Source: Geodermatophilus obscurus (GTDB lineage: Bacteria; Actinomycetota; Actinomycetes; Mycobacteriales; Geodermatophilaceae). From it: 64,000 bases of DNA. Below, piece by piece: positions 18,067 through 38,455 of the stretch; the first letter of the stretch is position 1, and each line of letters opens with the position of its first letter. The notes beneath the pieces are model-generated. The model searched no databases, had not been told where the DNA came from, and saw only the letters and a program-made list of their open reading frames with translations. A program made the position numbers and the translations under genes. The stretch spans positions 1-64,000 of the forward strand of contig NZ_FOWE01000001.1 of assembly GCF_900115395.1 (NCBI RefSeq). The letters are read 5' to 3'.

Positions 18067-18141
18067 TGCGGGCGCGTGACCTGCGCGGCTCCGCGAGCGG
18101 GGATCATGGGGCGGAACGACCCCACACCCCGGAGGCCGACC

Positions 18142-19344: not shown

Positions 19345-19364
19345 CGTCCGGGACGTGCTGGAAC

Positions 19365-19425
19365 GGCCCCCTCGCAGGGGCCCGCCGCGAGCGGAGCGAG
19401 TGGTGGGGGGTGAGGGGGTCCTTCG
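19365..19425 (+). repeat. 61-nt structured repeat, copy A (next to sigF stop)
   Basis: This element recurs at 37951-38011 in the opposite orientation, with 48 of 61 positions identical. Pairs 1-10/47-56 and 17-24/36-43 form two stacked stems around an invariant loop GAGCGGAGCGA (element positions 25-35). Eleven of the 13 differences lie in paired columns and keep pairing. In the sigF reading direction it begins CGAAGGACCCC directly after the sigF stop codon. It may be a terminator or 3'-UTR RNA element. Confidence 0.75.
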
Positions 19426-20433
19426 TCAGTCCTTGAGCAGGCCCTCGCGGAGCTTGGCCAGCGTCTGGGACAGCAGCCGGGAGACGTGCATCTGGGAGAT
19501 GCCGATGTCGGCGGCGATCTGCGACTGGGTCATGTTCCCGAAGAACCGCAGGATGAGGATGCGGCGCTCGCGGGCCGGGATGGTGGCCAGCAGCGGCTGC
19601 AGCGACTCGCGGTACTCCACGCCCTCCAGCGCGGCGTCCTCCTCGCCGAGGGTGGCCGCGAGCGTGGGGGAGTCGTCCTCGCCGGAGAGCCGCTCGTCGA
19701 GCGAGCTGCTGCGGTAGGCGTTGGCCACCGCGAGACCCTCCAGCACCTCCTCGCGCGGGATGCCCAGGTGCTCGGCCAGCTCCGACGGCGTCGGGGCGCG
19801 GCCGTTCTTCTGCGCCAGCTCGCCGACGGCGGAGTTGAGCGACAGGTGCAGCTCCTGCAGCCGGCGGGGCACCCGCACCGACCAGCCCTGGTCGCGGAAG
19901 TGCCGCTTGATCTCACCGGTGATGGTGGGGACGGCGAAGGAGAGGAACTCCACGCCGCGGTTGGGGTCGAACCGGTCGATCGCCGCGATCAGGCCGAGCG
20001 TGCCCACCTGCAGCAGGTCGTCGAAGGGCTCGCCGCGGTTGCTGAACCGGCGCGCGAAGTGCCGGACCAGGGGCAGGTGCTCCTCGACGAGGATCTCGCG
20101 CAGCCGTTCCCGGCGCGGGTCGGCCTTCTCCAGCGTGGCGAGCTCGGCGAACAGCGGCGCCGTCCGCTCGGCCCGGCGGCGGTTGTCCGACACGGGCGGG
20201 CTGTCGGGCTCGGCTGCCTCGACGGTGTCGGGCTCGACGGTGTCGGCCTCGACGGTGTCGGGCTCGACGGCCGGGTCCGGCGTGGTCTCCGGCGCGTCAC
20301 CGACGGCGGCGCCCTCGGTGGCGGTGCCCCCGGTGACGGCGTCCTCGGCGGTGACGGCGTCGGTCGGGTCGGCGGTGGCGTCGTCCAGGGGGTCCTCCTC
20401 GACGGCCCGGCTGCTGGCGGCCGCCGACGTCAC
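19426..20433 (-). CDS. sigF: RNA polymerase sigma factor SigF/SigB type (group 3)
   Basis: A 335-aa stress/development sigma factor. Region 2 (about 115-185) includes FDDLLQVGTLGLIAAIDRFDP and FLSFAVPTITGEIKRHFRD, region 3 spans about 193-265, and region 4 has the helix-turn-helix TQSQIAADIGISQMHVSRLL (302-321). The first 85 residues are acidic, with a tandem EPDTV repeat absent from typical family members. The GTG start overlaps the rsbW stop (GTGA, 20430-20433), indicating coupled translation. A SigF-like promoter lies upstream of rsbW, suggesting autoregulation. Confidence 0.95.
   Translation of the reverse strand: MTSAAASSRAVEEDPLDDATADPTDAVTAEDAVTGGTATEGAAVGDAPETTPDPAVEPDTVEADTVEPDTVEAAEPDSPPVSDNRRRAERTAPLFAELATLEKADPRRERLREILVEEHLPLVRHFARRFSNRGEPFDDLLQVGTLGLIAAIDRFDPNRGVEFLSFAVPTITGEIKRHFRDQGWSVRVPRRLQELHLSLNSAVGELAQKNGRAPTPSELAEHLGIPREEVLEGLAVANAYRSSSLDERLSGEDDSPTLAATLGEEDAALEGVEYRESLQPLLATIPARERRILILRFFGNMTQSQIAADIGISQMHVSRLLSQTLAKLREGLLKD
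20221..20265. repeat. 15-bp minisatellite (x3) in the sigF N-terminus
   Basis: GACGGTGTCGGGCTC repeats three times in tandem, with one mismatch in the middle copy. It encodes EPDTV/EADTV/EPDTV in the acidic N-terminal extension of SigF. The unit is a multiple of three, so copy-number change would keep the frame. Confidence 0.8.
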
Positions 20434-20939
20434 GGGGCGACCGTGAGGTCGCTGCCCGTGCCGCCGCCCGCGCGGCCGACGAGCTCGCCCAGCCGTTGTC
20501 CGGGCAGGTACTTGTCCATGGAGATCACGGCGACGGCCGAGTCGCTGCCGTCGCCGCCGGGCACGGTGGCCTGGGTGGCCGGCCGGCCGTCGACGTTGTC
20601 GGCCAGGGTCTGCAGGACCGCCCAGCCGAAGCCGTCGCGGGGGACCTGCGTCCCCTCGGCCGTGGGCACCCACGCGTCGATGTGCAGCCCCGCGCGGGTC
20701 GTCTCGAACACCACGGTCAGCGGGGCGTCGCCCAGGGCGATCGCGGTGAGGGTCGCGCAGGCCTCGTCGACCGCGAGGCGCAGGTCCTCGACCGAGTCGA
20801 GGTCGTAGTCCATGCGGATGGCCAGGTCGCCGGCCATCGCCCGCACCGCGGGCAGCTGTGTCGGCGTGGTGGGCACGCGCAGCTCCAGCCGTTCCGCGCG
20901 CCGCCCGTCCTGGGCGGGCGTGCCCCTCGAATCCGCCAT
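20430..20939 (-). CDS. rsbW: Anti-sigma factor RsbW/UsfX-type
   Basis: A 169-aa GHKL-fold anti-sigma factor expected to sequester SigF. The N-box region LRLAVDEACATLTAI (54-68) keeps the catalytic-type Glu59, but Thr replaces the usual Asn. GFGWAVLQTLADNVD (103-117) resembles mycobacterial UsfX (FSWHVLTALADDV). As in UsfX, the canonical ATP-binding G-boxes are degenerate, so kinase activity is doubtful. It is coupled to sigF and has its own SigF-type promoter. Confidence 0.9.
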   Translation of the reverse strand: MADSRGTPAQDGRRAERLELRVPTTPTQLPAVRAMAGDLAIRMDYDLDSVEDLRLAVDEACATLTAIALGDAPLTVVFETTRAGLHIDAWVPTAEGTQVPRDGFGWAVLQTLADNVDGRPATQATVPGGDGSDSAVAVISMDKYLPGQRLGELVGRAGGGTGSDLTVAP

Positions 20940-21087
20940 CGGTGGTCCGCTCCTCGTCCGTTCCGCCGGCCTCCCCGCGTCCGCCGTCGTCGGCGTCCCG
21001 GGGTGCCCGGCTCCATCCTGCCCGCCGGGTCCTCCCGGGGTCCGCCCGGGGCCGGGTGCTCACCCGGTCGTGCGCCAGCGCGCCGTC

Positions 21088-21114
21088 GTACCCGCCTCCC
21101 GTGCCGGTGAAACC
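21088..21114 (-). promoter_or_regulatory. SigF/SigB-type promoter upstream of rsbW-sigF
   Basis: On the reverse strand GGTTT (21114-21110) is followed after exactly 16 nt by GGGTAC (21093-21088). This matches the actinobacterial SigF consensus GGTTT-N15-17-GGGTA. It lies 149 bp upstream of the rsbW start codon and points at it. It implies that SigF transcribes its own operon. Confidence 0.75.
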
Positions 21115-21177
21115 GGACGTCGCCGGGTCGGTGTGCGCGGTTGCCGGTGTATCGGCCCTGTTGTCTGCTTGTGCCGG

Positions 21178-23055
21178 ATGAACGCAAGCCAGGACAGCCT
21201 GCCACCGGGGCCCCGTCCCGTCGTGGACGAGGGCCCGGCCGCGCTGGTCGCGGCCCTGGAGGACGCCCCCTCGGCGCTGTGGTTCGTCACCGGCCCGGAG
21301 CAGCGCACGGTATGGGCCAACGCCCGCGCCCGGGAGCTCGGGTCCACCCCCTCCGACCTGCCGGTGGTCGGCGGCCGGCCGGTCGCCGACCTGGTCGCCG
21401 GCGTGCTGCGCACGGGACGCCCGGCGACCCTCACCGGCGCCCTGAGCGGCGGCGGGCCGCCGGTCACCGTGGCGGTGCGCCCGCTGGCCGCCGGCCCCGA
21501 CCCGGGCGCCGTGCTGGTCGTCGAGGGCGGTGAGGGCGTCGACGGCATGCGGGCCGGTGCGGACGGCGGCGCGCCGGGGCACGGGCCGGCCGTCGACGTC
21601 GTCGGCCAGGCGCAGCACTCCCTGCTGCCGCCGTCGCTGCCGCTGCTGCCCGACGTCCGCCTGTCGGGGAGCTACCACCCCGCCACCTCGGCCCGGTCGG
21701 CCGGCGGCGACTGGTACGACGCGGTGTCGCTGGGGCACGGCCGCCTCGCCCTGGTGATCGGCGACGCCGTCGGTCACGGCGTGCCCGCCGCGGCGGCGAT
21801 GAGCCGGCTGCGGGGCGCCATGCGCTCCAGCGCGCTGCGCGACCCCGCCCCGGCGGCCGTCCTGGCCGCGCTCGACGACTTCGCCGCCCAGATGGACGAC
21901 GTCCAGGGGGCGTCGGTCTTCTACGCCGTCCTCGACGCCGCCACCGGAGCGCTGACCTACGCCGCGGCCGGTCACCCGGCGCCACTGCTGGTGCACGCCG
22001 ACGGCACCACCGACTTCCTCCCGGTGACCGCGCGGCCGCCGCTGGGCACGCTCGCCGGCACCCCGACCCCGGTGGCCCGCGCCACACTGGAGCCCGGCGC
22101 CACCCTGGTCCTCTACTCCGACGGCGCCGTGGCCGCCTCGGGCCCGCCGCCGTCGGAGGCGCTCGTCCGGCTCAGCGACGTCGCGCGCACCGCCCTCGCC
22201 GACCCGGAGGCGCTCGACGTCGGGGCCGTGGCGGGCCTGGCGGCCGAGATCGCCGGCGGGGTGCTCACCGCCGCCGGCCGCCCCGACGACGTCGCCGTGC
22301 TGGTGGCGCACCGCCGGTCCCTGTCGGTGGAGCCGCTACAGCTGGACCTGGTGGCGGTGCCCTCGGCGCTGCCCGCCGTCCGCCGCCGCCTCGGCGCCTG
22401 GCTGTCCGCCCTCGGCATGGGCGAGCAGGACCGCGTCGGCGTGATGGTGGCCGTGGGGGAGGCCTGCGCCAACGCCGCCGAGCACGCCTACCGCGACACC
22501 GAGCCCGGGCCGGTGCGGGTGACGGCCGCGGTCGACGTCGACGGGGTGCTCACCGTGACCGTGCACGACGAGGGCACCTGGCGACCCCCCGACCGCGACC
22601 CCGGGGACCGCGGCCGGGGCCTGCTGATCATGCGGCAGCTCGTCGACGGGATGGTGGTGCGCGGCGAGCACGGCACCACGGTCACGCTGCGCACGCGGCT
22701 GCGGCAGACGCCCGACGAGGAGCCCGAGCACCCGGTGGGCGGCAGCGGCGCCACGGTCGTCGTCGACCGGGAGGGCGGCAGCCCCGTGGTGCGCGCGGCC
22801 GGCGACGTCGACACGGCCAGCGCCGAGCAGCTGCGGATCCGGCTGCTGGAGGCGAGTCACGGCGGCACCGTCCGCGTCGAGCTCGACCTCACCGCGGTGA
22901 CGCTGTTCAGCAGCGCGGCGGTGCGGGTGGTCCTGGCCGTCGCGGCGATCGCCGAGGCGGAGGGCTGGCGGCTCGTCGTGCACGCGCCGGCCGGCGGCGT
23001 GACCCGGCACATCCTCGAGGTCAGCGGGATGCAGCGGCTGGTCGAGCTGCGCTGA
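21178..23055 (+). CDS. Four-domain PAS-like/SpoIIE phosphatase/HATPase/STAS regulator
   Basis: A 625-aa fusion. A PAS-like sensor occupies about 18-118. A PP2C/SpoIIE phosphatase (about 140-378) has GGDWYD at 176-181, GDAVGHG at 195-201 and YSDGAV at 313-318. An RsbW-like HATPase (about 385-507) has N-box GEACANAAEHAY (427-438) and DEGTW (464-468). A STAS domain occupies about 525-625. In the STAS site VTLFSSAAV, Ser579 aligns with the phospho-acceptor, but the preceding Asp and the following Ser/Thr-Gly are replaced. It is divergent from rsbW-sigF and combines phosphatase, kinase and anti-anti-sigma modules in one chain. Confidence 0.9.
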   Translation: MNASQDSLPPGPRPVVDEGPAALVAALEDAPSALWFVTGPEQRTVWANARARELGSTPSDLPVVGGRPVADLVAGVLRTGRPATLTGALSGGGPPVTVAVRPLAAGPDPGAVLVVEGGEGVDGMRAGADGGAPGHGPAVDVVGQAQHSLLPPSLPLLPDVRLSGSYHPATSARSAGGDWYDAVSLGHGRLALVIGDAVGHGVPAAAAMSRLRGAMRSSALRDPAPAAVLAALDDFAAQMDDVQGASVFYAVLDAATGALTYAAAGHPAPLLVHADGTTDFLPVTARPPLGTLAGTPTPVARATLEPGATLVLYSDGAVAASGPPPSEALVRLSDVARTALADPEALDVGAVAGLAAEIAGGVLTAAGRPDDVAVLVAHRRSLSVEPLQLDLVAVPSALPAVRRRLGAWLSALGMGEQDRVGVMVAVGEACANAAEHAYRDTEPGPVRVTAAVDVDGVLTVTVHDEGTWRPPDRDPGDRGRGLLIMRQLVDGMVVRGEHGTTVTLRTRLRQTPDEEPEHPVGGSGATVVVDREGGSPVVRAAGDVDTASAEQLRIRLLEASHGGTVRVELDLTAVTLFSSAAVRVVLAVAAIAEAEGWRLVVHAPAGGVTRHILEVSGMQRLVELR

Positions 23056-23101
23056 GCGGGCGGTCCGTTTACGGGACCGTCGCGGTGCCCATCCACGGGG
23101 C

Positions 23102-24112
23102 GTGAGACTGCGGCGCAGCAACGTGCACGGCCCGGGCTGGACCCGGCGCCGCGTCGGGCGGGGCTTCTCCTACCGCGACGAGTCCGGCGCGCTGATCCGC
23201 GATCCCGACCGGCTCGACCGCATCCGGGGCATCGCCATCCCGCCGGCCTGGAAGGACGTCTGGATCTGCCCCTGGCCCAACGGGCACATCCAGGCCACCG
23301 GGCTGGACGCCGCGGGTCGGCGGCAGTACCGCTACCACGAGGCCTGGCGGGCGCGGCGCGACGCCGAGAAGCACGAGCGGGTCCTCGCGATCGCCTCCGA
23401 GCTGCCCGACGTCCGGGACCGGGTCGCCGCGGCGCTGCGCACCCGCGGGCCCAACCGGGAGCGGGTGCTGGCCTGCGCGCTGCGGCTGCTGGACCTGGGC
23501 ACCTTCCGCATCGGCAGCGAGGAGTACGCCGAGGAGAACGGCACCTACGGCCTGGCCACGCTGCGCCGGGAGCACGTGAGCGTGCGGGGCGAGCGGACGT
23601 TCTTCCGGTACACCGCCAAGGGCGGCATCGAGCGGGAGGTGGAGATCACCGACCGGCCGACGGCGACCGTGGTCCGGCAGCTGCTCGAGCGCCCCGACGA
23701 CGCCGGCGACGAGCTGCTGGCCTACCGGTTGGACGACGGCAGCTGGCACGACGTGACCAGCGACGAGATCAACGCCTACCTCAAGGAGGTCAGCGGGGCG
23801 GAGATCACGGCCAAGGACTTCCGGACGTGGAACGCCACGGTGATGATGGCCGCCGCGCTCGCCGAGCAGCCGCCGCCGCCGAGCCGCACCGCCCGCAACC
23901 GGACGATCCGGGACGCCTACGTGCGGGTGTCCGAGCAGCTGGGCAACACACCTGCGGTGTGCAAGGCGAGCTACGTCGACCCGCGGGTGGTCGACCGCTA
24001 CGAGCACGGCGAGACGGTCGCCGACGCGCTCGCCGACGCCGCCCGGGCCGACGACGACCGCGAGGCCCAGAAGGTGCTCGAGCGAGCAGTCTGCCGCCTG
24101 CTGTCCGCGTAG
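23102..24112 (+). CDS. DNA topoisomerase IB
   Basis: A 336-aa type IB topoisomerase (poxvirus-like) that relaxes supercoils through a 3'-phosphotyrosyl intermediate. An N-terminal domain begins GFSYRDESGALIRDPDRLDRIRGIAIPPAWKDVWICPWPNG. The catalytic core includes FRIGSEEYAEENGTYGLATLR, KDFRTWNATV and the active-site KASYVDPRVV with Tyr291. The length is normal for bacterial TopIB. The GTG start lies 46 bp after the phosphatase gene. Confidence 0.94.
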   Translation: MRLRRSNVHGPGWTRRRVGRGFSYRDESGALIRDPDRLDRIRGIAIPPAWKDVWICPWPNGHIQATGLDAAGRRQYRYHEAWRARRDAEKHERVLAIASELPDVRDRVAAALRTRGPNRERVLACALRLLDLGTFRIGSEEYAEENGTYGLATLRREHVSVRGERTFFRYTAKGGIEREVEITDRPTATVVRQLLERPDDAGDELLAYRLDDGSWHDVTSDEINAYLKEVSGAEITAKDFRTWNATVMMAAALAEQPPPPSRTARNRTIRDAYVRVSEQLGNTPAVCKASYVDPRVVDRYEHGETVADALADAARADDDREAQKVLERAVCRLLSA

Positions 24113-24142
24113 CCGGCCCGCCGGAACGGACCCTCCGGAACG

Positions 24143-24172
24143 GACGAGGCCCCGCCGGAGCGGGGCCTCGTC
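24143..24172. terminator. 12-bp hairpin between convergent topoisomerase and STAS genes
   Basis: GACGAGGCCCCG (24143-24154) pairs perfectly with CGGGGCCTCGTC (24161-24172) around a 6-nt loop, midway between two convergent stop codons. Just upstream, CCGGAACGGAC is repeated in tandem at 24121 and 24135. Confidence 0.8.
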
Positions 24173-24187
24173 GTCAGGTGTGCGGGA

Positions 24188-24583
24188 TCAGCGGGCGGTG
24201 CTGTCCACGATGGTGAACAGGTCGATCAGGCCGGTGACCTCGAGCGGGCGGGTGACCGCCCGGGTGGTGGCGACCAGGCGCAGCTCGACGTCGCGGGCGC
24301 GGGCCGACTTCTGGGTCTCGACGAGGACGGCCAGCCCGGCCGAACCCAGGAACTGGACACCGGACAGGTCGATGACCAGTTCACGGGGCTGCTGCTCGAG
24401 CTGGGTGTCCAGCGAGGAACGCAGCACCGGGGCGGTGAAGGTGTCGACCTCGCCGACGACCGTCACCGTGACCGCGCCGTCCTCACCGGTGGAGGTCGAG
24501 AGCGTGATCACGTCGTCGAAGGGTGCCTCCGTGCCCTCGTTCGACACGTCGTGCCCTCCGGCGGGCAGGTCGGATGCGGTCAC
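24188..24583 (-). CDS. STAS-domain anti-anti-sigma factor
   Basis: A 131-aa single STAS domain with an acidic 30-residue N-terminal extension. The core is VTVTVVGEVDTFTAPVLRSSL, ELVIDLSGVQFLGSAGLAVLVE and LRLVATTRAVTRPLEVTGLIDLFTI. The acceptor site FLGSAGL keeps a Ser (position of phosphorylation by RsbW-type kinases) followed by Ala-Gly. It could relieve SigF inhibition by binding RsbW, given the nearby sigF module. A weak promoter-like pair TGACAC/TAGATT (18-bp spacer, 24661-24632 on the reverse strand) lies upstream. Confidence 0.9.
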   Translation of the reverse strand: MTASDLPAGGHDVSNEGTEAPFDDVITLSTSTGEDGAVTVTVVGEVDTFTAPVLRSSLDTQLEQQPRELVIDLSGVQFLGSAGLAVLVETQKSARARDVELRLVATTRAVTRPLEVTGLIDLFTIVDSTAR

Positions 24584-24856
24584 GGACTGGGCTCCTCTCA
24601 GCGGTCGCGCCCTCTGGCGCGGCCACCGGTCAATCTACCGCCGCGAGCACCGGGGGTGTCATCGCCCCGGGTGGACGGGCGGTCGTCGGGGGGTGTGCCG
24701 GAGGCGGTCGGCCGCCGGCGCACGCGGCTGCCTGCTCAACCGCATTTACAACGTAGACAACCCGGTGGCCGCACGCCAACCAACCCGGCAGGTGTTCCCC
24801 TGTCAGGGGACCTGTCGGGCTGGGCGGTGCGGGCCTGCGCCGGCGCAGGCGCCGCC
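24584..24856. other. 273-bp intergenic region with a low-GC pocket
   Basis: I see no gene here. An AT-richer stretch at 24738-24762 (CAACCGCATTTACAACGTAGACAA region; GTTGTCTAC and GTTGTAAAT in tandem on the reverse strand) stands out from the surrounding sequence. At 24789-24814 CAGGT and CCCCTG pair with CAGGGG and ACCTG. That is a possible terminator for the reverse-strand DUF5709 gene, although its loop is too short as drawn. Confidence 0.35.
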
Positions 24857-25372
24857 TCAGGGGTCGATGAGGTGGACGGCGGCCTCCTCGGGACCCTCGC
24901 CGCCGGCGCGGCGGTCGGCGGTCGCCTCGATGTCGTCGGCCGTCCTGTTGGTCCCCGAGTCGCTGTCGAACGACGTCGAGGTGTCCTGCTCCAGCTGCAT
25001 GGACGCCGCCTGCGGGTCCTCCGCCGCCCGGACGCCGGGCTGCACGTCGGGCACCTCGCGCTCGAGCCGGCCGCTGAGCGACTCGCCCTCGGACTGCTCG
25101 TACGCGGTGGTGCCGAAGTCGACCACCGCGCCGGGGTCCTCACGCGGCAGCGGGGCGAACTCCGGGTCCTCCGACGACATCATCGTGGGGGAGTCGTCCT
25201 GCGCGACCTCCGGGATGCCCTCGTCCTCGGGGAAGACGTCGCGGGCGGTCTGGGCCTCGGGGCGGAGGAGGCCGGCGACGTCGGAGGTGCCGGTCAGGCC
25301 CCGCTCGTCGTCGGGGAACTCGGCGTCGTTGAGGGCCGAGTGGCCGGCCCCGGGGTCGTTCGGCTCGGTCAT
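24857..25372 (-). CDS. DUF5709 family protein
   Basis: A 171-aa very acidic, probably disordered protein matching DUF5709. Features include MTEPNDPGAG, GLLRPEAQTARDVFPEDEG, DDSPTMMSSEDPEFAPLP, YEQSEGESLSGRLEREVPDV and a C-terminal RTADDIEATADRRAGGEGPEEAAVHLI. The family is actinobacterial and uncharacterised. The ATG at 25372 begins the conserved region. It is divergent from the DUF1360 gene with a 181-bp gap. Confidence 0.8.
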   Translation of the reverse strand: MTEPNDPGAGHSALNDAEFPDDERGLTGTSDVAGLLRPEAQTARDVFPEDEGIPEVAQDDSPTMMSSEDPEFAPLPREDPGAVVDFGTTAYEQSEGESLSGRLEREVPDVQPGVRAAEDPQAASMQLEQDTSTSFDSDSGTNRTADDIEATADRRAGGEGPEEAAVHLIDP

Positions 25373-25553
25373 GGGTGCCTCCGCTCTGGGGTGCGTGCGC
25401 CGCGGCACGCGCGTCCGTCCGTGCGGACGGGGCAACCGGTCGGGCGACCGGTGTCGTGATCGCGACCTACCCGCCGCGTCCGGGCCCATGCGTGACCCGG
25501 CGCGCAGCGCCGGACCGGCATGCCGTCCCCGGCCGCGGGGTAGCGAGAGCGGC

Positions 25554-26171
25554 ATGGCGATCGCAGACGAGGTCCAGCGGATCGGGGCGCCGGTCCGGCG
25601 CTGGGTGCGCACCCAGGAGCGCGAATACACCCGGGGAGAGCCCCGCCCGCTCGCCGGTGACCTCGGGGCGATGGGCGTGTACCTCGGGCTGGTGTCGACC
25701 GCCGCGGCGGCCGTGCGGGCATCGGGGCGGGAGTTGCCCGACCGGATCCCCCCGGGGGACGCGGTCCTGCTGGCCATCGCCACCTTCCGGCTCGCCCGCC
25801 GGATCGCCAAGGACCCCGTCACCGCGCCGCTGCGCGCTCCGTTCACGGCCTTCCAGGGACCCTCGGGGCACGCGGAGGTCGCCGAGGAGGTCCGTGAGCA
25901 CGGCGGCGTGAAGCACGCCGTCGGCGAGCTGCTGACCTGTCCGTTCTGCCTGGCCCAGTGGGTGGCCACCGGGCTCGTCTTCGGCTACGTCGCGGCGCCG
26001 CGCGCGACCCGGCTGGCGGCGTTCACCATGACGCTGGTCGCCGGCAGCGACGTCCTGCAGTTCGTCTACGACGCCATCCAGAACGGTGCCCTGGCCCCCT
26101 CGCCGCCGGAGGCCGCGGGAGCCGACGCCGGCCCGGGTGACGACGCCGGCCGGCACGCCGAACAGGACTGA
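25554..26171 (+). CDS. DUF1360 family membrane protein
   Basis: A 205-aa protein with the DUF1360 signature TCPFCLAQWV and the upstream segment AIATFRLARRIAKDPVTAPLRAPFTAFQGPSGHAE. There are about three to four membrane helices (GAMGVYLGLVSTAAAAV, AQWVATGLVFGYVAA, LAAFTMTLVAGSDVLQFVY). Family members often occur beside sporulation or stress genes, but no function is known. The extended, charged N-terminus (about 30 residues) is unusual. Confidence 0.85.
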   Translation: MAIADEVQRIGAPVRRWVRTQEREYTRGEPRPLAGDLGAMGVYLGLVSTAAAAVRASGRELPDRIPPGDAVLLAIATFRLARRIAKDPVTAPLRAPFTAFQGPSGHAEVAEEVREHGGVKHAVGELLTCPFCLAQWVATGLVFGYVAAPRATRLAAFTMTLVAGSDVLQFVYDAIQNGALAPSPPEAAGADAGPGDDAGRHAEQD

Positions 26172-26298
26172 GAACAGGGAGCCCGCTTCCCCCGGGCGGA
26201 GGAGACCAGCGGCGATCGTGCTGCCGGGGCCGCCGGCCCGCACCTATCCTGCGGGCCCGGCCGGTCGGCGGACCGGAGCCCGGGGAAGGGGAGTGGAC

Positions 26299-27267: not shown

Positions 27268-27270
27268 CCC

Positions 27271-28260: not shown

Positions 28261-28270
28261 GGGGGACGCC

Positions 28271-29188: not shown

Positions 29189-29220
29189 CCGGGGCGGCCG
29201 CCCTGCCACCATGGCGCACC

Positions 29221-30105: not shown

Positions 30106-30203
30106 GGGAGGACGCTTCCGCTGGGCGGGACCCGAGTGGGGGACGCCGTACCGCGCACCTACCGTCGGTCGACCGTGCTGACCACCTCGCCGCGGAGGTC
30201 CCC

Positions 30204-31520: not shown

Positions 31521-31524
31521 CCGG

Positions 31525-32475
31525 TTACTCGCCGGAGCGGCGGTCCTGCTCGGCGAGGAAGCGCTCGAACTCCGCGCCGATCTCGTCGCCGGTGGGCACC
31601 TCGCCGACGCTGCCGAGCAGGTCGTTGCTCTCGCGGGCGGCGGTGAACTGGTCGTACTGCTGCTCCAGCGCCGCCACGACCGCGGTGTTGTCGGCCGACC
31701 GCGCGATCTGCTCGTCGACCTCGGTGCGGTGCTCCTGGGCGGCCTCGCGCAGCGTCTCGACGGGCAGCACCAGGCCGGTCAGCCGGCCGACGTGCTCGAG
31801 CAGCGTCAGCGTCGCCGCCGGGTAGGTGGCCTGGGCCAGGTAGTGCGGCACGTGCGCGGCCACGCCCAGGGCGTCGACGCCGGCCTCGCCGAGCCGCAGC
31901 TCCAGCAGGGCCGGGGCACTCCCGGGGATGCGCAGGTCGCCCCAGTAGACGGGGTAGGACTCGATGAGGGCCCGGCGCGTGGCGTGCGCGGTGACCGTCA
32001 CCGGCCGGGTGTGCGGCACCGGCATCGGGATGGCCTGCACCGCCACGACCGAGGTGACGCCGAGGCGCTCGACGAGGCCGGCGACGGCGGCGACGAACGC
32101 CTCCCACCGGTAGTCGGGCTCGGGCCCGGTCAGCAGCAGGAACGGCTCGCCGGCGTCGTCCTCCAGCGCCGACAGCACGATCTCCGGCGCGTCGAAGGAC
32201 TCGTACCGGTCACCGGCGAACGACATCCGCGGCCGCCGGGCCCGGTAGTCGACCAGCAGGTCGGCGTCCAGGCGCGCGATGGTGCGGTGCGGCAGCGCGC
32301 CCAGCAGGTGGGCGCCGGCCAGGGCGACCGAGGAGGCGGCGTCGAAGTCGCCGCCCAGGGCGTGCACCAGCACCAGGCCGCGCCGGTCGCCGGGGCTGCG
32401 CACCTGCGCCTCGGCGGCGAGGAACGGCTCGGCCTCGGGGAGCAGCTCGACGAGCTCCTCCGGTCGCTGCGGCAC
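31525..32475 (-). CDS. PAC2 family protein
   Basis: A 316-aa protein of the PAC2 (proteasome assembly chaperone 2-like) family, related to actinobacterial proteins of unknown function. Landmarks are RGLVLVHALGGDFDAASSVALAGAHLL, RYESFDAPEIVL, FLLLTGPEPDYRWEAFV, SVVAVQAIPMPVPHTRP and GVAAHVPHYLAQATYPAATL. The start is fixed by a perfect AGGAGGT 5 nt upstream of the GTG at 32475; the frame is open further upstream but lacks a ribosome site. No proteasome genes are in the window. Confidence 0.9.
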   Translation of the reverse strand: MPQRPEELVELLPEAEPFLAAEAQVRSPGDRRGLVLVHALGGDFDAASSVALAGAHLLGALPHRTIARLDADLLVDYRARRPRMSFAGDRYESFDAPEIVLSALEDDAGEPFLLLTGPEPDYRWEAFVAAVAGLVERLGVTSVVAVQAIPMPVPHTRPVTVTAHATRRALIESYPVYWGDLRIPGSAPALLELRLGEAGVDALGVAAHVPHYLAQATYPAATLTLLEHVGRLTGLVLPVETLREAAQEHRTEVDEQIARSADNTAVVAALEQQYDQFTAARESNDLLGSVGEVPTGDEIGAEFERFLAEQDRRSGE

Positions 32476-32480
32476 GGGGT

Positions 32481-32487
32481 ACCTCCT
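32481..32487 (-). promoter_or_regulatory. Perfect Shine-Dalgarno deciding the PAC2 start
   Basis: ACCTCCT on this strand is AGGAGGT on the coding strand, 5 nt upstream of the GTG at 32475. It argues against the longer open frame that begins at 32532. Confidence 0.8.
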
Positions 32488-32542
32488 GCGGGACGACGTC
32501 GCCAGGGACAGCGACGGCGGGCCCGCGCGCATTCCCGCGTGG

Positions 32543-33925
32543 TCAGCCCCCGGCGGTCCCCGGCGCCTGCTCCCGGGTGAGGACGGCGCCGTCGTCGTCG
32601 CCGGAGACCCGCGTCTGCGTGCCGTCGTCGGCGACCTCGGGATGGCGGCCGTCGAACGCGTCGCGCGTGTACCGGTAGACCACGGCGATGAGCGCGGCCA
32701 CCGGCACCCCGAGGAAGGCGCCGACGATGCCGAAGAGGCTGCTGCCCGCGGTGACGGCGAGGATGACCACCGCGGCGTGCAGGTTGAACCCGCGGCCCTG
32801 GATGATCGGCTGCAGCACGTTGCCCTCGATCTGCTGCACGAGCAGGACGACCCCGAAGATCGCCAGGGCGACGTAGGGCCCCTCGTCGACCAGGGCGATG
32901 AGCACGGCGAACGCGCCGGCGACGAAGGCGCCGATGATCGGGATGAACGCGCCGAAGAAGGTCAGCACCGCGAGCGGGATGACCAGCGGCACGTCGAAGA
33001 TCCACAGGCCGATGCCGATGAAGAGGGCGTCGATGAAGCCGACGAACGCCTGCTGCTTGATGAACTCCGACAGCGTGGACCAGGTCTTCTGCGACAGCGC
33101 GGCCACGTGCGGCGCCGCCTTCGGGCCGGTCTGCGCGGTCAGCCACGGCACCCAGCGCGGCCCGTCCTTGATGAAGAAGAACGCCAGCAGCAGCGCCAGG
33201 ACCAGGTTGAGGAGCCCGTTGCCGACGGCGGAGGCGCCGGTCGCGGCGTAGCCGGCGATGTTCGAGGCGTTGGACTGGACCGAGTCGATCGCCTGGTCGA
33301 CGTACTGGCCGATCTGCTCCTGGTCGATGTTGAACGGCGGCCCCTGGAGCCACTGCTGGATCTGCTCCAGCCCGCTCGTGGCCTGGTCGGCGAGGTCGGT
33401 CACCTGGTCGGCCACCTGGGGTGCGATGGCCGCGATCAGCCCGCCGATGAGACCGAGGAACGCCAGCAGCACGACCGCCGCGGCCAGCGCGGGGGGCCAG
33501 CGGTGCTTCCGCAGGAACCGGGTGGGCGGCCAGAGCACGGTGGCGAACAGCAGGCCGAGCACGATCGGCAGGAGGATCACCCACAGCCTGCCCAGCACCC
33601 AGAAGACGACGACGAGGGCCGCGCTGATGAGCAGCAGCTGCGCCGAGGCGACGGCCAGGGTGCTGAAGGCCGACATCGCGCGCCGGCCCCGCTCCCAGCC
33701 CGGCGTCGGGGCGACCGTCGCCTCGTGGTCGGCCGCCCGCGGGTCGCCGCGTCCGCCCTCGCCGGAGAGGTCCGGCGCCGGACCGGTGACGGAGCCCGTG
33801 CCGGAGCCCGTGCCGGAGCCCGTGCCGGAGCCCGTGCCGGACCTCGTGGTCCGCGGACGCTCCGTCGCCGCGGCGGCGCCCGCGGACGGCGGCGCGTCCG
33901 GACGTCCGGGAAGGCGGAACCTCAT
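32543..33925 (-). CDS. AI-2E family transporter (first copy)
   Basis: A 460-aa polytopic protein of the AI-2E/PerM/YdiK superfamily. After an 85-residue hydrophilic N-terminus come paired helices (LLLISAALVVVFWVLGRLWVILLPIVLGLLFATVLWPP) and AAAVVLLAFLGLIGGLIAAIAP. A long periplasmic-type helical region (VADQVTDLADQA to GYAATGAS) precedes the C-terminal block with FIKDGPRW, PLAVLTFFGAFIPIIGAFVAG and QQIEGNVLQPIIQGR, the family hallmark. Members act as exporters or Na+/H+ antiporters. The start is either 33925 or the ATG at 33934. The N-terminus holds a GTGS repeat. Confidence 0.92.
   Translation of the reverse strand: MRFRLPGRPDAPPSAGAAAATERPRTTRSGTGSGTGSGTGSGTGSVTGPAPDLSGEGGRGDPRAADHEATVAPTPGWERGRRAMSAFSTLAVASAQLLLISAALVVVFWVLGRLWVILLPIVLGLLFATVLWPPTRFLRKHRWPPALAAAVVLLAFLGLIGGLIAAIAPQVADQVTDLADQATSGLEQIQQWLQGPPFNIDQEQIGQYVDQAIDSVQSNASNIAGYAATGASAVGNGLLNLVLALLLAFFFIKDGPRWVPWLTAQTGPKAAPHVAALSQKTWSTLSEFIKQQAFVGFIDALFIGIGLWIFDVPLVIPLAVLTFFGAFIPIIGAFVAGAFAVLIALVDEGPYVALAIFGVVLLVQQIEGNVLQPIIQGRGFNLHAAVVILAVTAGSSLFGIVGAFLGVPVAALIAVVYRYTRDAFDGRHPEVADDGTQTRVSGDDDGAVLTREQAPGTAGG
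33791..33838. repeat. 12-bp minisatellite (x4) in the AI-2E gene
   Basis: GGAGCCCGTGCC is repeated perfectly four times in tandem, encoding GTGS units in the cytoplasmic N-terminus of the transporter. It preserves frame whatever the copy number and is a likely site of length variation between strains. Confidence 0.9.
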
Positions 33926-34057
33926 GGTTCCCATCGCACCACGGATCACTGGCGACCACCGGTCGGGCGGACGGCGGGACGCCGGGTCGGCGGCCTCCTG
34001 ACCGGGTAGGGGGCGCGTGCCGGGGACCCCGCCCCGGCCCGTCCCGAGAGGTCCACC

Positions 34058-34327
34058 ATGTCCGAGGTCCCGCAGCCGGTCACCGACAACAGCGTCAAGG
34101 TCCGGCAGCTGTCGCACTACCAGTTCAGCTGGATCGCCGGGGAGCCCGGCCAGCCCGGCACCTACACCCTGCAGCTGGTCCTCGACCAGGGCGCGTGGGA
34201 GGAGATCCTCACCCTCGACCCCGACGACGCCGACAACCTGCAGGACCTGCTCACCGCCACCGAGACCGTGCACTACGACATCGACCGGCGGGTGCTGATG
34301 TTCGGGGTCAAGAAAACCGGCAGCTGA
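34058..34327 (+). CDS. Small conserved hypothetical protein (89 aa)
   Basis: An 89-aa protein: MSEVPQPVTDNSVKV, HYQFSWIAGEPGQPGTYTLQLVLDQGAWEEI, LDPDDADNLQDLLTATETVHYDIDRRVLMFGVK. It looks like a small alpha/beta fold with strong strand-forming segments. I do not recognise a characterised family. GAGAGGTCC lies upstream of the ATG. It is divergent from the AI-2E transporter with about 130 bp between the starts. Confidence 0.75.
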   Translation: MSEVPQPVTDNSVKVRQLSHYQFSWIAGEPGQPGTYTLQLVLDQGAWEEILTLDPDDADNLQDLLTATETVHYDIDRRVLMFGVKKTGS

Positions 34328-34393
34328 CCGTCCGGCCGTCCAGTGGCACGGCCCCGGCGCCCGGCGGACGGAGGCGCCGCTAGCGTCGGGGCC

Positions 34394-34855
34394 GTGCCCA
34401 GGACCGCGAGAGCCGACCGCGTCGACCGTGCCGCCCTGCTCGACTTCCTCCGCCCGCGCCACCGGGCGGTGCTCCTCACCCGGCGCCGCGAGGGCGTGCA
34501 GCTGTCCCCGGTGACCTTCGGGGTGGACGGTGAGGGGCGGGTCGTCGTCTCCACCTATCCCCAGCGGGCGAAGGCCCGCAACGCCCGCCGCGACCCGGCG
34601 GTCTCGCTGTGCGTCCTGTCGGAGGACTTCGACGACCCCTGGGTGCAGGTGGACGGGTGTGCGGAGGTGCTCGACCTGCCCGAGGCGCTCGAGCCGCTGG
34701 TGGAGTACTTCCGGTCGATCAGCGGGGAGCACCCCGACTGGGCGGAGTACCGCGCGGCGATGGTCCGCCAGGGTAAGGCGCTGCTGCGGATCACGATCGA
34801 GGCGTGGGGCCCGGTGGCCACCGGCGGCTTCCCGCCGGAGCTCGCCGGGGACTGA
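34394..34855 (+). CDS. PPOX-class F420-dependent oxidoreductase
   Basis: A 153-aa split-barrel flavin/deazaflavin-binding protein. The core AVLLTRRREGVQLSPVTFGVDGEGRVVVSTYPQRAKARNARRDPAVSLCVL is characteristic of F420-dependent PPOX-type enzymes (pyridoxamine oxidase fold), with WVQVDGCAEVLDLPEALEPLVEYFRSI following. F420-binding members reduce diverse substrates. The substrate is not predictable. The GTG at 34394 fits the family length. A perfect hairpin at 34864-34889 follows. Confidence 0.9.
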   Translation: MPRTARADRVDRAALLDFLRPRHRAVLLTRRREGVQLSPVTFGVDGEGRVVVSTYPQRAKARNARRDPAVSLCVLSEDFDDPWVQVDGCAEVLDLPEALEPLVEYFRSISGEHPDWAEYRAAMVRQGKALLRITIEAWGPVATGGFPPELAGD

Positions 34856-34863
34856 GCGGCGCG

Positions 34864-34889
34864 CCCGGCAAGCCCAGGAGCTTGCCGGG
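34864..34889 (+). terminator. 10-bp hairpin after the F420-type oxidoreductase
   Basis: CCCGGCAAGC (34864-34873) pairs perfectly with GCTTGCCGGG (34880-34889) around a 6-nt loop, starting 9 nt after the stop codon. Confidence 0.65.
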
Positions 34890-34916
34890 GACGGCCGGGG
34901 CGACGACGCTGCCCGC

Positions 34917-35555
34917 GTGCCCCTGGCCCTCGCCTGTGCCCCGCTGACCGCGGCCGCCGGCGGGTCGGACCCGGGAACCGCCGGCGGGCCACCGGCCGCC
35001 CTCGGGCCCGGCGCCCGCCCCCTCGGCGAGGGCTGGTCGGCCGGCGCCGGGGACGCGGCCACCGCCGTCGACACCGTCGCGCGGCTGGTGCGCGCCGGCG
35101 GCTGGCGGATCGGCGTGGGCGCCGGGCCCGGGGACGACGACGGGCCGGTCGCGCTGGCCGCGCGCCGGGCGCTGGGGGCGGCCGCCCGCCGTCCCGCCCG
35201 CCTGGCCGTGCGCGGCGCCGACGCGGAGGCCGCGGCCGACGCGCAGGCCGTGCTCACCGCCCTCGCGGTGCTGCTCGCCCGCCGCAGCGCCGCGGCGTGG
35301 GCGGCCGTCGACCTGGTCGCCGCGGGCGGCACGCGGTCCGCGGCCGCCGCGGTGCTCGGCGTCTCCCGGCAGGCGGTGGGGCAGCGGCTGGCCGCCGGCG
35401 GCTGGGACCTGGAGTGCGAGCTGCGGCCCACGGCCGCGCGACTGCTCGCCCGGGCGGCGGGCCGGGACCCGGCCGGGCGACACCCCGCGCCGCCCGGCGG
35501 TCCGGTCGGCGAGGATGATCCGTCCGGAACGTCCCCGCCAGGAGGTCCTGCGTGA
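34917..35555 (+). CDS. Hypothetical protein with HTH-like region (212 aa)
   Basis: A 212-aa Ala/Gly-rich protein. The region AAWAAVDLVAAGGTRSAAAAVLGVSRQAVGQRLAAGGWDLE resembles a helix-turn-helix (turn GVSRQAVGQRL) and could bind DNA. The N-terminal half has alternating strand/helix segments (VPLALACAPLTAAAGG, GWRIGVGAGPG) reminiscent of SatD-type proteins. I do not assign a family. The GTG at 34917 lies just after the hairpin. Its last codon overlaps the next gene (GTGA, 35552-35555). Confidence 0.6.
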   Translation: MPLALACAPLTAAAGGSDPGTAGGPPAALGPGARPLGEGWSAGAGDAATAVDTVARLVRAGGWRIGVGAGPGDDDGPVALAARRALGAAARRPARLAVRGADAEAAADAQAVLTALAVLLARRSAAAWAAVDLVAAGGTRSAAAAVLGVSRQAVGQRLAAGGWDLECELRPTAARLLARAAGRDPAGRHPAPPGGPVGEDDPSGTSPPGGPA

Positions 35556-36091
35556 ACGAGCCCGTGCACCCGCAGCGCAACGTCGAGCTCCTCGGCGTCT
35601 ACGTCAACGACCACCTGGCCGCGGCCACCGGTGGCATCGAGCTGGTCGGCCGCATGCTGGGGGTCCACCGGGGCTCGCGGTGGGAACCGCCGCTCGAACA
35701 GCTGCTCACCGAGCTGCGCGACGAGCGGGCGGCCCTGCTGCGGGTCACCCGGGCGGTCGGCATCCCGGTGCGGCAGTACAAGCAGCTCGGCGTCTGGCTG
35801 GCGGAGAAGGTCAGCCGTGCCAAGCTCAACGGCCGCCTGCTGTCGCGCTCGCCGCTGTCGGACCTGGTCGAGTTCGAGTTCCTCGCCTCGGCCGTCCGGG
35901 GCAAGCGCAGCGGGTTCGAGACCCTGCGGATCGTCGCCGAGGTCGACCAGCGCCTCGACCGCGCCGAGCTCGACCGCCTCATCGACCAGGCGCACCGGCA
36001 GTACGAGTGGCTCACCGAGGCCCGGCGCGAGGTGGCCGCCGAGGTGTTCGGCGGCCGCCCGGCCGCGGCCGGGGAGGCCGTCGCCGACTGA
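35552..36091 (+). CDS. Conserved hypothetical helical protein (179 aa)
   Basis: A 179-aa, almost entirely helical protein with heptad-like spacing: NVELLGVYVNDHLAAATGGIELVGRML, LEQLLTELRDERAALLRVTRAVGI, QYKQLGVWLAEKVSRAKLNGRLLSRSPLSDLVEFEFLASAVRGK and LDRLIDQAHRQYEWLTEARREVA. It looks like a four-helix-bundle protein, but no metal-binding residues are obvious. It is translationally coupled to the HTH-like gene upstream, so the two may work together. Confidence 0.75.
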   Translation: MNEPVHPQRNVELLGVYVNDHLAAATGGIELVGRMLGVHRGSRWEPPLEQLLTELRDERAALLRVTRAVGIPVRQYKQLGVWLAEKVSRAKLNGRLLSRSPLSDLVEFEFLASAVRGKRSGFETLRIVAEVDQRLDRAELDRLIDQAHRQYEWLTEARREVAAEVFGGRPAAAGEAVAD

Positions 36092-36216
36092 CCCCGGACG
36101 GCGCCCGCCCGCCGTCCCGGCCGGTGCGACACCCGTCGTCGGCCGGCCCGGCGGGCGGTGTGTGCCGTGACACGCTGGGCACCCCACGGGGGGCGCTGGA
36201 CGGGGAAGGGGGCTCC

Positions 36217-37587
36217 ATGGCCACGCAGCACCACGTGCCCGGCCCGGGGCAGGAGCGGGCGCGCACTGGGAGCACCCGGCTGGCGCCGGCCGACGAGGAG
36301 GCCGTCATCGCGGCCGCGCTCGACGGCACGGAGCCGGGCGCCGACCCGGCCCGGCCGGGTGACGGGCCGACCCCGGGCCTCGCCGTCGACGTGCCCGGCG
36401 CCGCCTCGGAGCCGGAGCCGGCCGGGGCGCCGACGGCGGCCGCACCGGCGTCGGGCGTGCTGCCGCGCTGGCTGGTGATGCTCGTCGGCGCCGCGGCCGC
36501 GACCATCGCCGTCGCCGGGGTGCGGGAGATCGCGTGGCTGATCGCGCCGGTGATGCTCGCGCTGGTCGTCGTCGTCGCGCTCATGCCGGTGCAGCGCTGG
36601 CTGCTGCGCCACGGGGTGCCCCGCTGGGCCGCGGCCACCGTCCTGCTGCTGCTGGTGTGGAGCGTGCTGCTGGGCCTGGGCTCGCTGCTGGTCGTGGCCA
36701 TCGCGCAGTTCGCCGTCCTGCTGCCCGACTACGCGCCGGAGTTCGCGGTCCTCCTCGACGACACGGTGCGGCGGCTCGACGAGGCCGGACTGTCCTCGAC
36801 GCAGATCCAGGAGCTGGTCGACCGGTTCGACTACGGCCAGCTGGTGGGCCTGGCCACCGGCCTGCTCACCCGGGTCACCGACACCGCCACCACGCTCGTG
36901 CTGCTGCTGTCGGCGATGGTCTTCCTCGCCATCGAGTCCGGCGGGTTCGGCCGGCGGCTCGCGCTGGTGGCCGAGGAGCGGCCGCACCTGCCCATCGCCC
37001 TGGGGCTGTTCGCCCGCGGCACCCGCTCCTACCTGCTGGTCAGCACGGTGTTCGGCGCGATCGTCGCGGTGGGCGACACGATCGCGCTGGCCGTCCTCGA
37101 GGTCCCGCTGCCGGTGCTGTGGGGGCTGCTGTCGTTCATCACCAACTACGTCCCGAACATCGGGTTCGTCCTCGGCGTCATCCCGCCGGCCCTGCTCGCC
37201 CTGCTCGACGGCGGCTGGACGGAGTTCTGGGTCGTCCTGGGCGTCTACGCGCTGCTCAACTTCGTGGTGCAGACGCTGATCCAGCCCCGCTTCGTCGGCG
37301 ACTCGGTCGGCCTGTCGATGACGGTCACCTTCCTCGCGCTGCTCTTCTGGGGCTGGGTCCTCGGCGCGCTGGGCGCCCTGCTGGCCATCCCGCTCACACT
37401 GCTGGTCAAGGCGCTGCTGGTCGACGTCGACCCGCGCGGGCACTGGCTCGACGCCCTGCTGAGGGAGGAGCCCCGGGCCGCGCGGACCAGCCGCGCCCGC
37501 CAGCGCGCCCAGGCCCGGCGGGCGGCGCTGGCCTCGGTCCGGACGCTGCACCCGCACTGGCCGTCCCGCCGCGGACACCCGGACTGA
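36217..37587 (+). CDS. AI-2E family transporter (second copy)
   Basis: A 456-aa AI-2E/PerM superfamily protein, clearly distinct from the copy at 32543-33925. The membrane part begins WLVMLVGAAAATIAVAGVREIAWLIAPVMLALVVVVAL. The soluble region (LLPDYAPEFAVLLDDTVRRLDEAGLS) precedes the family core, with LPVLWGLLSFITNYVPNIGFVLGVIPPALLALLDGG and LLNFVVQTLIQPRFVGDSVGLS. The 80-residue N-terminus and the Arg/Ala-rich C-terminus are poorly conserved. The substrate is unknown. The ATG at 36217 follows GGGGAAGGGGG. Confidence 0.92.
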   Translation: MATQHHVPGPGQERARTGSTRLAPADEEAVIAAALDGTEPGADPARPGDGPTPGLAVDVPGAASEPEPAGAPTAAAPASGVLPRWLVMLVGAAAATIAVAGVREIAWLIAPVMLALVVVVALMPVQRWLLRHGVPRWAAATVLLLLVWSVLLGLGSLLVVAIAQFAVLLPDYAPEFAVLLDDTVRRLDEAGLSSTQIQELVDRFDYGQLVGLATGLLTRVTDTATTLVLLLSAMVFLAIESGGFGRRLALVAEERPHLPIALGLFARGTRSYLLVSTVFGAIVAVGDTIALAVLEVPLPVLWGLLSFITNYVPNIGFVLGVIPPALLALLDGGWTEFWVVLGVYALLNFVVQTLIQPRFVGDSVGLSMTVTFLALLFWGWVLGALGALLAIPLTLLVKALLVDVDPRGHWLDALLREEPRAARTSRARQRAQARRAALASVRTLHPHWPSRRGHPD

Positions 37588-37685
37588 CCTGCGCGGACGC
37601 CCTCCCGCAGGGAATGTCGGACCCCAGGAGGACGTTGATCAGTAGTCGGGCGAGGTGCCCGGCAGCACCCCCTGAGGAGGACCCC

Positions 37686-37949
37686 GTGAAGGGCGATCGT
37701 GTCGAGATCGTGATCGATGCCGGCGGCACCACCCGCACCTACGAGATCGAGGCCACCCGAGCCGGGCGGCGGGTCGACGTCACCCACGGCCGCGGCCTGG
37801 TGGAGGTCACCGAGACCACCCGCGGCGGCACGCCGGTGCGCACCGCGCGGTTCATGTCCGGGCGGGTGCTCGCGCTCGTCGAGCACCCCGCGTCCCGGTT
37901 CGTCCTCGACGACGACGAGCCGGTGACGCCGCTGCGGCGCAGCGCCTAG
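37686..37949 (+). CDS. Small conserved hypothetical protein (87 aa)
   Basis: An 87-aa beta-rich protein: VEIVIDAGGTTRTYEIEATRAGRRVDVTHGRGLVEVTETTRGGTPVRTARFMSGRVLALVEHP. A near-perfect GAGGAGG (37674-37680) ribosome site precedes the GTG, supporting a real gene. No known family is recognised. The stop is followed after one base by copy B of the 61-nt structured repeat. Confidence 0.75.
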   Translation: MKGDRVEIVIDAGGTTRTYEIEATRAGRRVDVTHGRGLVEVTETTRGGTPVRTARFMSGRVLALVEHPASRFVLDDDEPVTPLRRSA

Positions 37950-37950
37950 T

Positions 37951-38011
37951 CGAAGGACCCCGGTGCCCCCCTCGCCTCGCTCCGCTCGGCGCGGGGCCCT
38001 GCACCGGGGCC
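37951..38011 (-). repeat. 61-nt structured repeat, copy B
   Basis: This is the reverse-oriented counterpart of 19365-19425 (48 of 61 identical). In the direction of the preceding gene it starts CGAAGGACCCC one base after that gene's TAG stop, the same placement as copy A after sigF. Stems CCCCGGTG/CACCGGGG and CCCGCGCC/GGCGAGGG (one mismatch) close over the invariant loop. Differences from copy A are mostly compensatory. Confidence 0.75.
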
Positions 38012-38014
38012 GCA

Positions 38015-38455
38015 GTGGCTGAGCTGGTCGTGATGGTCGGGTTGCAGGGCGCGGGCAAGTCCACGTGGGTCCGCGAGCACCTCGCGGACACCCACGCGGT
38101 CGTGAGCAAGGACCACTGGCCGCGGGCCCGCCGGCGCGAGGCCCGGCAGCAGCGCGTGGTCGCCGAGCACCTGGCGGCCGGGCGCAGCGTCGTCGTCGAC
38201 AACACCAACCCCTCGCCGGGGGAGCGGGCCGCCCTGCTGGCCGCGGGCCGCGCCGCCGGCGTCCCGGTGCGCGCCGTCTGGGTGGACACCCCGCTGGGCA
38301 CCTGCCTGGCCTGCAACGACGCCCGCGAGGAGCGGGCGCGGGTGCCGCTCGTCGGCGTGTTCGCCACCCGGGCCCGCCTGGTGCCGCCCTCGACGGCGGA
38401 GGGCTTCGACCGGGTCGACGTCGTCCGCGCCGGGGGACCGCGGCCGGCCGGCTGA
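38015..38455 (+). CDS. P-loop kinase-like ATPase (146 aa)
   Basis: A 146-aa single-domain P-loop protein. Walker A GLQGAGKST is at residues 9-17. SKDHWPRARRREARQQRVVAEHL and VVVDNTNPSPGERAALLAAGR resemble the AAA_33/polynucleotide-kinase-like family that phosphorylates nucleic acid ends or small molecules. WVDTPLGTCLACNDAREERARVP is the expected lid region. The target is unknown. The GTG starts 4 bp after the 61-nt repeat. Confidence 0.85.
   Translation: MAELVVMVGLQGAGKSTWVREHLADTHAVVSKDHWPRARRREARQQRVVAEHLAAGRSVVVDNTNPSPGERAALLAAGRAAGVPVRAVWVDTPLGTCLACNDAREERARVPLVGVFATRARLVPPSTAEGFDRVDVVRAGGPRPAG

Follow-up and report, generated by a model that had tools for sequence, protein, structure and literature searches.

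Results

The window, a stretch of 64,000 nucleotides from Geodermatophilus obscurus, contains two copies (A and B) of a 61-nt hairpin element, each located at the end of a gene. The features of the two loci are listed below, with scores referring to the covariance model R1 described in the following section.

18076..19344, (+) strand: convergent gene for a Band 7/SPFH protein, start approximate
19342..19364, (-) strand: 3′ tail of copy A, GTTCCAGCACGTC..., a sequence common to many copies
19365..19425, (-) strand, read with the upstream sigF-like gene: copy A, a 61-nt imperfect hairpin, 82.7 bits with R1
19426..19428, (-) strand: TGA stop of the sigF-like gene, immediately followed by copy A
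19426..20433, (-) strand: sigma factor gene of the SigB/SigF/SigG family, start approximate
37686..37949, (+) strand: gene upstream of copy B, encoding an 87-aa protein
37947..37949, (+) strand: TAG stop, one nucleotide ahead of copy B
37951..38011, (+) strand: copy B, a 61-nt hairpin, 71 bits with R1
38015..38455, (+) strand: codirectional gene downstream of copy B, P-loop kinase-like (AAA_33)

The sigma factor gene scores 300 bits with TIGR02980, above the cut-off of 234, and 335 bits with the SigF model NF005514, under the cut-off of 372, while the 87-aa protein has no Pfam or NCBIfam match at E 0.001. The tail of copy A extends to the stop of the convergent gene, a TGA that reads TCA on this strand and is 20 nt behind GGCC, and the predicted start of the kinase-like gene is 3 nt behind copy B. 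The coordinates, the length of 61 nt and the 48/61 identities reported in the preliminary description are all exact, and both copies, when read with the upstream gene, do open with CGAAGGACCCC, 0 nt after TGA in A and 1 nt after TAG in B; the 11-nt loop is identical. The copies differ in 13 columns (7, 8, 9, 16, 22, 23, 37, 38, 40, 47, 48, 49, and 50), and the earlier assignment of 11 of these to the pairs 7-50, 8-49, 9-48, 10-47, 22-38, and 23-37 holds, but not the strand, since numbering and pairing are those of the strand opposite the upstream genes. On that opposite strand, pairs 10-47 and 23-37 of copy A are G.T, and hence A.C mismatches on the gene strand. The predicted fold of copy A on the gene strand (-24.6 kcal/mol, z -0.06) is no better than those of shuffled sequences, and that on the opposite strand reaches -40.7 kcal/mol (z -3.0); copy B folds well on both strands (gene strand -38.2, z -3.1; opposite strand -42.1, z -3.2). 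Apart from copies A and B, R1 returns only two weak matches in the window (E 0.67 and 1.6). A known RNA family was rejected as the identity of the element, since no Rfam family reaches its gathering score anywhere in the window; with relaxed limits, the best hit in 19300-19500 has E 0.51 and 12 bits.

A dispersed repeat family

We counted 40 sites with the 11-mer CGAAGGACCCC in the genome, compared with 4 for the reversed control. Model R1 was built from 26 of these 40 sites that were judged well-formed by eye, i.e., copies A and B and 24 others; its helix 3, comprising the loop pairs, is misplaced by one column, with pairing in only 14% and 21% of cells. Copies A and B are clearly not isolated: with 150 candidates scored, R1 gives at least 135 matches in this genome at E ≤ 0.001. 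Matches were found in 34 of 61 genomes, namely in all 26 of the genus and in 8 of 11 others of the family, and in none of the 24 genomes from other families. The three family members lacking a match (G029, G032, and G034, out of the 11 outside the genus) include one genome that is only 79% complete (G029). A further 295 genomes of the class, some overlapping the earlier set, gave no match among the 15 candidates scored per genome. Two additional genera have, per genome, at least 147 and at least 64 matches (at most 150 scored).

A 29-base core is present in 56 stretches among a collection of 84,980 species, and the hosts are confined to Geodermatophilus, Blastococcus, Modestobacter, Trujillonella, or a Geodermatophilaceae bacterium. 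The loose pattern GGACCCC..GGGGCC is enriched in the relative G027 (56 vs 27 for the reversed control), but does not exceed the reversed control in G028, G036, G032, and G034. Copies A and B are therefore members of a dispersed, REP-like palindromic repeat family of the Geodermatophilaceae. The element consists of a hairpin of ~60 nt and, frequently, a tail GTTCCAGCACGTCACC, and its unpaired parts are also conserved in sequence (GAAGGA, the loop CTCGC..GCTCG, and the tail GTTCCAGCAC).

Placement and orientation at stop codons

DNA was obtained for 123 of the 135 matches, with ten regions holding 12 weak matches omitted, and rescanning of the resulting 100 loci at E ≤ 0.01 yielded 128 matches, 124 of them distinct. 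As judged with a simple gene caller, the stop of the upstream gene ends -6 to +2 bases from the element in 97/124 copies, and a coding-frame test places it -5 to +2 nt from the C of CGAAGG in 98/124. The end CGAAGGACC faces the stop. In the commonest arrangement (51/98), TGA stands directly ahead of the element; most others are TAG plus one base, or show the stop overlapping the element, as in TGAAGGACC and (T)AGAAGGACC. The main stem opens with a GG located ~1-5 nt behind the stop, and 4 nt in the commonest case. Among named contigs, where copies were located by the internal core only and 2 of 56 were too close to a locus end to test, 47 of 54 copies are stop-adjacent, compared with 3 of 411 shifted positions. 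The same applies to 54 of 65 copies in the two other genera, taken from the 30 best loci of each (out of the at least 147 and at least 64 matches) and with 4 of 69 copies outside the test. The placement at 3′ ends is thus real and tight, and the earlier suggestion of a REP-like element that targets 3′ ends is supported and fits the family well.

For the 97 copies in the standard orientation, the downstream neighbour is codirectional in 52, convergent in 35, and unclear in 10. The next predicted gene follows within 46 nt of copy B and of 18 others among the 52 codirectional cases. A convergent stop lies within 150 nt of 45 copies, and in 8 of these it is exactly 11 nt behind GGGGCC, so that the element can hold both stops at its ends.

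The gene caller left 27 of the 124 copies without an adjacent stop. Eight of them were called within 150 nt behind a gene in the inverse orientation only; three of these (L064, L065, and L005) are immediately preceded by TGA or TAG and probably represent standard cases that the caller overlooked. Five of the 27 are located within a predicted reading frame (L015:1998-2080, L090:2072-2154, L094:2060-2140, L107:2060-2142, and L113:2094-2176).

Pairing and covariation

The additional copies do not break the pairing. Over the 124 distinct copies, changes on both sides of a pair were counted in 305 cells, whereas shuffled alignments gave a mean of 84 and slid versions 22-38, in an alignment that was fitted to R1 and leans toward the structure of that model. 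Such two-sided changes affect 21 of 23 pairs (shuffled mean 13.4), although two of the 21 belong to the mis-set loop helix and are not really paired, and owing to their common ancestry the 124 copies do not represent 124 independent events. Up to four Watson-Crick types are found at the outer-stem pairs. An orthologous pair of copies in two related genomes (L254:8847 in G007 and L244:8585 in G006), within a locus alignment of 93%, differs by two outer pairs that have changed on both sides. The fold is kept by paired mutations, and the selection on a folded structure proposed in the preliminary description is supported by covariation far above both controls.

Strand bias of fold and tails

Relative to the upstream gene, the antisense core has the better predicted fold in 124/124 copies, by a mean of 6.5 kcal/mol, and likewise in 65/65 copies of the two further genera. 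For unrelated strong codirectional folds behind stops, the antisense strand is better in 49/88, with a mean difference of 0.8. Mismatches point in the same direction: sense-strand A.C, which corresponds to antisense G.U, occurs in 49 cells vs 16 for sense G.U in the 124 copies (26 vs 6 in the two other genera), but counted by columns the numbers are 13 and 11, a small and weak bias. At one inner pair the sense strand has A.C in 88, G-C in 21, and A-T in 9 of 124 copies, and 56 A.C, 10 G-C, and 3 A-T of 69 in the two other genera. Because R1 was built on the sense strand, the model would favour a bias opposite to that seen. For Bacillus terminators, PMC5381666 gives 89.5% (68/76) of resolved AU-GC switches as passing through GU; with GU as the main intermediate, the antisense reading of the element behaves like a functional RNA. 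The first 8 nt of the tail contain 35% T on the antisense strand (115 copies) and 18% on the sense strand (124 copies), compared with 14-15% for unrelated hairpins (47 and 30 tails), which makes the antisense “U-tract” ~3 U in eight.

Turnover at orthologous sites

The sigF-like locus was compared by eye in 23 genomes of the genus: the stop is immediately followed by a clear copy in six and by a decayed copy in one, while the remaining 16 lack a copy there, one of which has a copy further down. Several copy-less loci bear unrelated strong hairpins at the stop (by eye). The locus of the 87-aa gene in 22 genomes has a clear copy in 8, a nested or decayed-looking one in 3, a remnant in 2, and none in 9 (by eye). 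The C-termini of the encoded proteins are nearly identical with or without the element, and the stop is therefore probably older than the element. Over ~85 kb compared between G006 and G007, the latter has four strong copies, of which one is shared with G006, one is a remnant there, and two are absent. At one of these sites, a hairpin is all that G006 has behind the stop, and in G007 the copy separates this hairpin from the stop; since the window is also without a copy at this position, gain in G007 is suggested. At the site of copy B, just 11 nt separate the stop from the shared GAGCTGGTCGTG of the next gene in G004 (L159), and with these genes nearly touching, and the downstream start in the window 3 nt behind the hairpin (37949-38015), the element probably came between operon genes. 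Intergenic sequence at the aligned orthologous loci is too diverged for a target-site duplication to be read.

By eye, a second element apparently lies within the loop of a first one in L145 (sigF locus), L171 and L174 (both 87-aa gene locus). BIME-like composites, in which incomplete units or isolated 3′ halves (CCCTGC..GGGGCCGTTCCAGCAC) come after full copies, were noted, also by eye, in L049:1501-1687, L061, and L254:8847-8990.

Unrelated hairpins behind stops

Hairpins unrelated to the element likewise start right behind the stops of convergent genes, as seen in the window and in portions of the G006 and G007 genomes. The mean 42-nt fold at 49 convergent stops is -23.5 at position +6, compared with about -16 elsewhere, and that at 101 codirectional stops is -19.2 at position 0. 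As hairpins of unrelated sequence are common at this position, a hairpin at the stop is probably useful in these bacteria. The placement of the element is tighter than that of the unrelated hairpins.

One unrelated, terminator-like hairpin of 13 bp (ACGAGGCCCCGC/GCGGGGCCTCGT) lies between convergent genes in the window at 24112-24187, with an adjoining direct repeat CCGGAACGGAC. What appears to be the same convergent gene pair in G006 (L244:4200-4248) and G007 (L254:4456-4502) has, by eye, long hairpins of the same size and quite different sequence at the same spot, and in both cases the two stop codons form the ends of the palindrome (TGAC...GTCA and TAGG...CCTA).

Mobilisation and insertion target

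Mobilisation of the RAYT/IS200 type is ruled against by the absence of a Y1/RAYT transposase gene (PF01797) from all 37 family genomes, in a search that was positive in E. coli and in 5 of 14 control genomes. Three of the 24 genomes outside the family have PF01797, all of them without the element. TGA was rejected as a sequence target on two grounds: the off-stop copies mostly have no stop triplet at the corresponding place (8/27 have one), and the nucleotide that precedes TGA follows the pattern of other genes (51/69 vs 140/169, p 0.15). The tight placement is explained neither by chance insertion nor by a TGA target. Spread by phage or plasmid was likewise rejected, as neither one 23-base pattern (viral contigs) nor copy A (plasmid and phage records) gave a match.

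Discussion

Of the three classes named in the preliminary description, i.e., a terminator, a 3′-UTR RNA, or a REP-like element, a sense-strand 3′-UTR RNA fits the strand bias of the fold least. The interpretation that we place first, with somewhat less than even confidence, is that of a REP-like repeat acting as a U-poor two-way terminator that is stronger against polymerase arriving from downstream. As for an intrinsic terminator, the predicted folds form a stable G+C-rich hairpin close behind the gene. For polymerase entering from downstream, the transcript would contain this hairpin and, behind it, UUCSUCA as the most frequent variant; because the last three bases of UUCSUCA complement the TGA stop, antisense and convergent RNAs would terminate where the gene ends. 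For polymerase moving with the gene, a weaker hairpin is predicted, the foot of which is near enough to the stop to be covered by a terminating ribosome. The E. coli terminator tR2 loses nearly all of its activity when only a few bases separate it from a translated stop, and requires ~27-30 nt for its full effect (PMC4824070). If transcription and translation are coupled alike here, a sense terminator that starts 1-5 nt behind the stop would be damped during translation. Transcripts from downstream would meet no such ribosome, and would have the stronger hairpin and the U-richer tail (35% T vs 18%); it is on these three grounds that a two-way terminator weighted toward the antisense direction is ranked first. 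A strong sense terminator would be awkward in the 19 of 52 codirectional cases where the next gene starts within 46 nt. Other observations also weigh against the terminator interpretation. The copy in G007 was probably gained at a stop that already had a hairpin behind it, and so was not required as a source of one, and a plain terminator role does not explain why the element is placed more tightly than unrelated hairpins are.

Less probable, but next in rank, is a selfish or neutral mobile repeat of the REP/MITE type with no host function, the fold of which would be recognised as single-stranded DNA by a putative mobilising enzyme, and which would pile up at stops through an insertion preference or purging elsewhere. 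Such an origin agrees with the shared primary sequence in the unpaired parts, the presence or absence at orthologous stops, the single intact copy that G006 shares out of four strong ones in G007, the seemingly nested copies, incomplete tandem units and isolated 3′ halves (by eye), and also with a fold biased to one strand. It is less easily reconciled with the lack of PF01797 in the family and of any sequence target beyond the stop, and the compensated pairing in the orthologous G006/G007 copies speaks for continued use after insertion. A more far-reaching interpretation, which we regard as unlikely, would be a still-active, family-wide repeat that inserts precisely behind stops without a Y1 transposase and has its functional fold on the antisense strand; it would serve as a mobile “gene-end insulator”, halting antisense transcription when it reaches the final codon of the gene.

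A sense-strand 3′-UTR hairpin acting on the mRNA, either by 3′-end protection or by stalling or slowing of the ribosome at the stop, appears improbable. Ribosome stalling or slowing has been reported for REPs near stop codons in E. coli, and the position of the stem foot ~1-5 nt behind the stop, the fixed orientation to the upstream gene, and the codirectional gene that follows 52/97 stop-adjacent copies would all suit such a function. However, the sense fold is predicted to be the weaker one in 124/124 copies, the inner pair is an A.C mismatch in 88/124, and the sense fold of copy A, though not that of copy B, is no better than shuffles. Highly improbable is a DNA-level site (a cruciform, a site for a nucleoid or gyrase-like protein, or an uptake signal), for which the conserved unpaired sequence and the terminator hairpins formed by uptake signals in Neisseria and Pasteurellaceae (PMC1852404) can be quoted, but which leaves the stop adjacency unexplained, would as a cruciform fold both strands and give equal A.C and G.U where the cells are unequal, and would as an uptake signal be expected in 1,000 or more copies (PMC1852404) and not on the order of 100 per genome (at least 135, 147, and 64).

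Comparison with known systems reveals both similarities and differences. As for the REP/BIME sequences associated with RAYT (TnpA_REP), the Geodermatophilaceae element is a short, imperfect extragenic palindrome, often in more than 100 copies per genome, with variants that keep the pairing and with composite arrays, and REPs that flank rayt genes often follow the rayt stop codon directly or lie near it (PMC2817692). Unlike in the REP/RAYT systems, no Y1/RAYT gene was found in the 37 family genomes. It is located mostly 0-1 nt behind, or overlapping, the stops of many different genes in one orientation. Further, it lacks the GTAG/GTGG head of known REPs (as listed in PMC2817692), its head being mostly [CG]G[AG]AGGACC or TGAAGGACC. 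With the U-poor “I-shaped” or bidirectional terminators of G+C-rich bacteria, the element shares a strong G+C hairpin directly behind the stop, also between convergent genes, and structured 3′ ends without U-tracts are described for Streptomyces clavuligerus (PMC8269248). As a putative terminator, it differs from these in that its copies have one sequence family-wide, and hence probably one descent, and in that its predicted fold is better in the antisense direction. The uptake-signal terminators of Neisseria and Pasteurellaceae are similar in reusing a repeated sequence as a hairpin behind genes, but are built on a signal of 9-11 nt in 1,000 or more copies (PMC1852404), compared with a number of element copies on the order of 100.

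Dispersed actinobacterial repeats placed at stop codons are also known from Mycobacterium tuberculosis, in the form of MIRUs, which are set apart by their small reading frames and are not known to form such a hairpin. None of the titles or abstract starts retrieved from the open-licence PMC literature describes the repeat, and it may have been described elsewhere; in the searched passages of a Geodermatophilaceae genome paper (PMC9686282), “palindromic” is used only for CRISPR.

If our interpretation is correct, most of the sampled genera of the Geodermatophilaceae possess a family of palindromes positioned at stop codons to within almost a single base, apparently without the classical REP transposase. 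As natural copies number on the order of a hundred per genome, orthologous sites exist with and without the element, and the prediction as to the strand is clear, the system is directly testable, and would open to experiment the questions of how transcripts end without U-tracts in G+C-rich actinobacteria and how short repeats spread.
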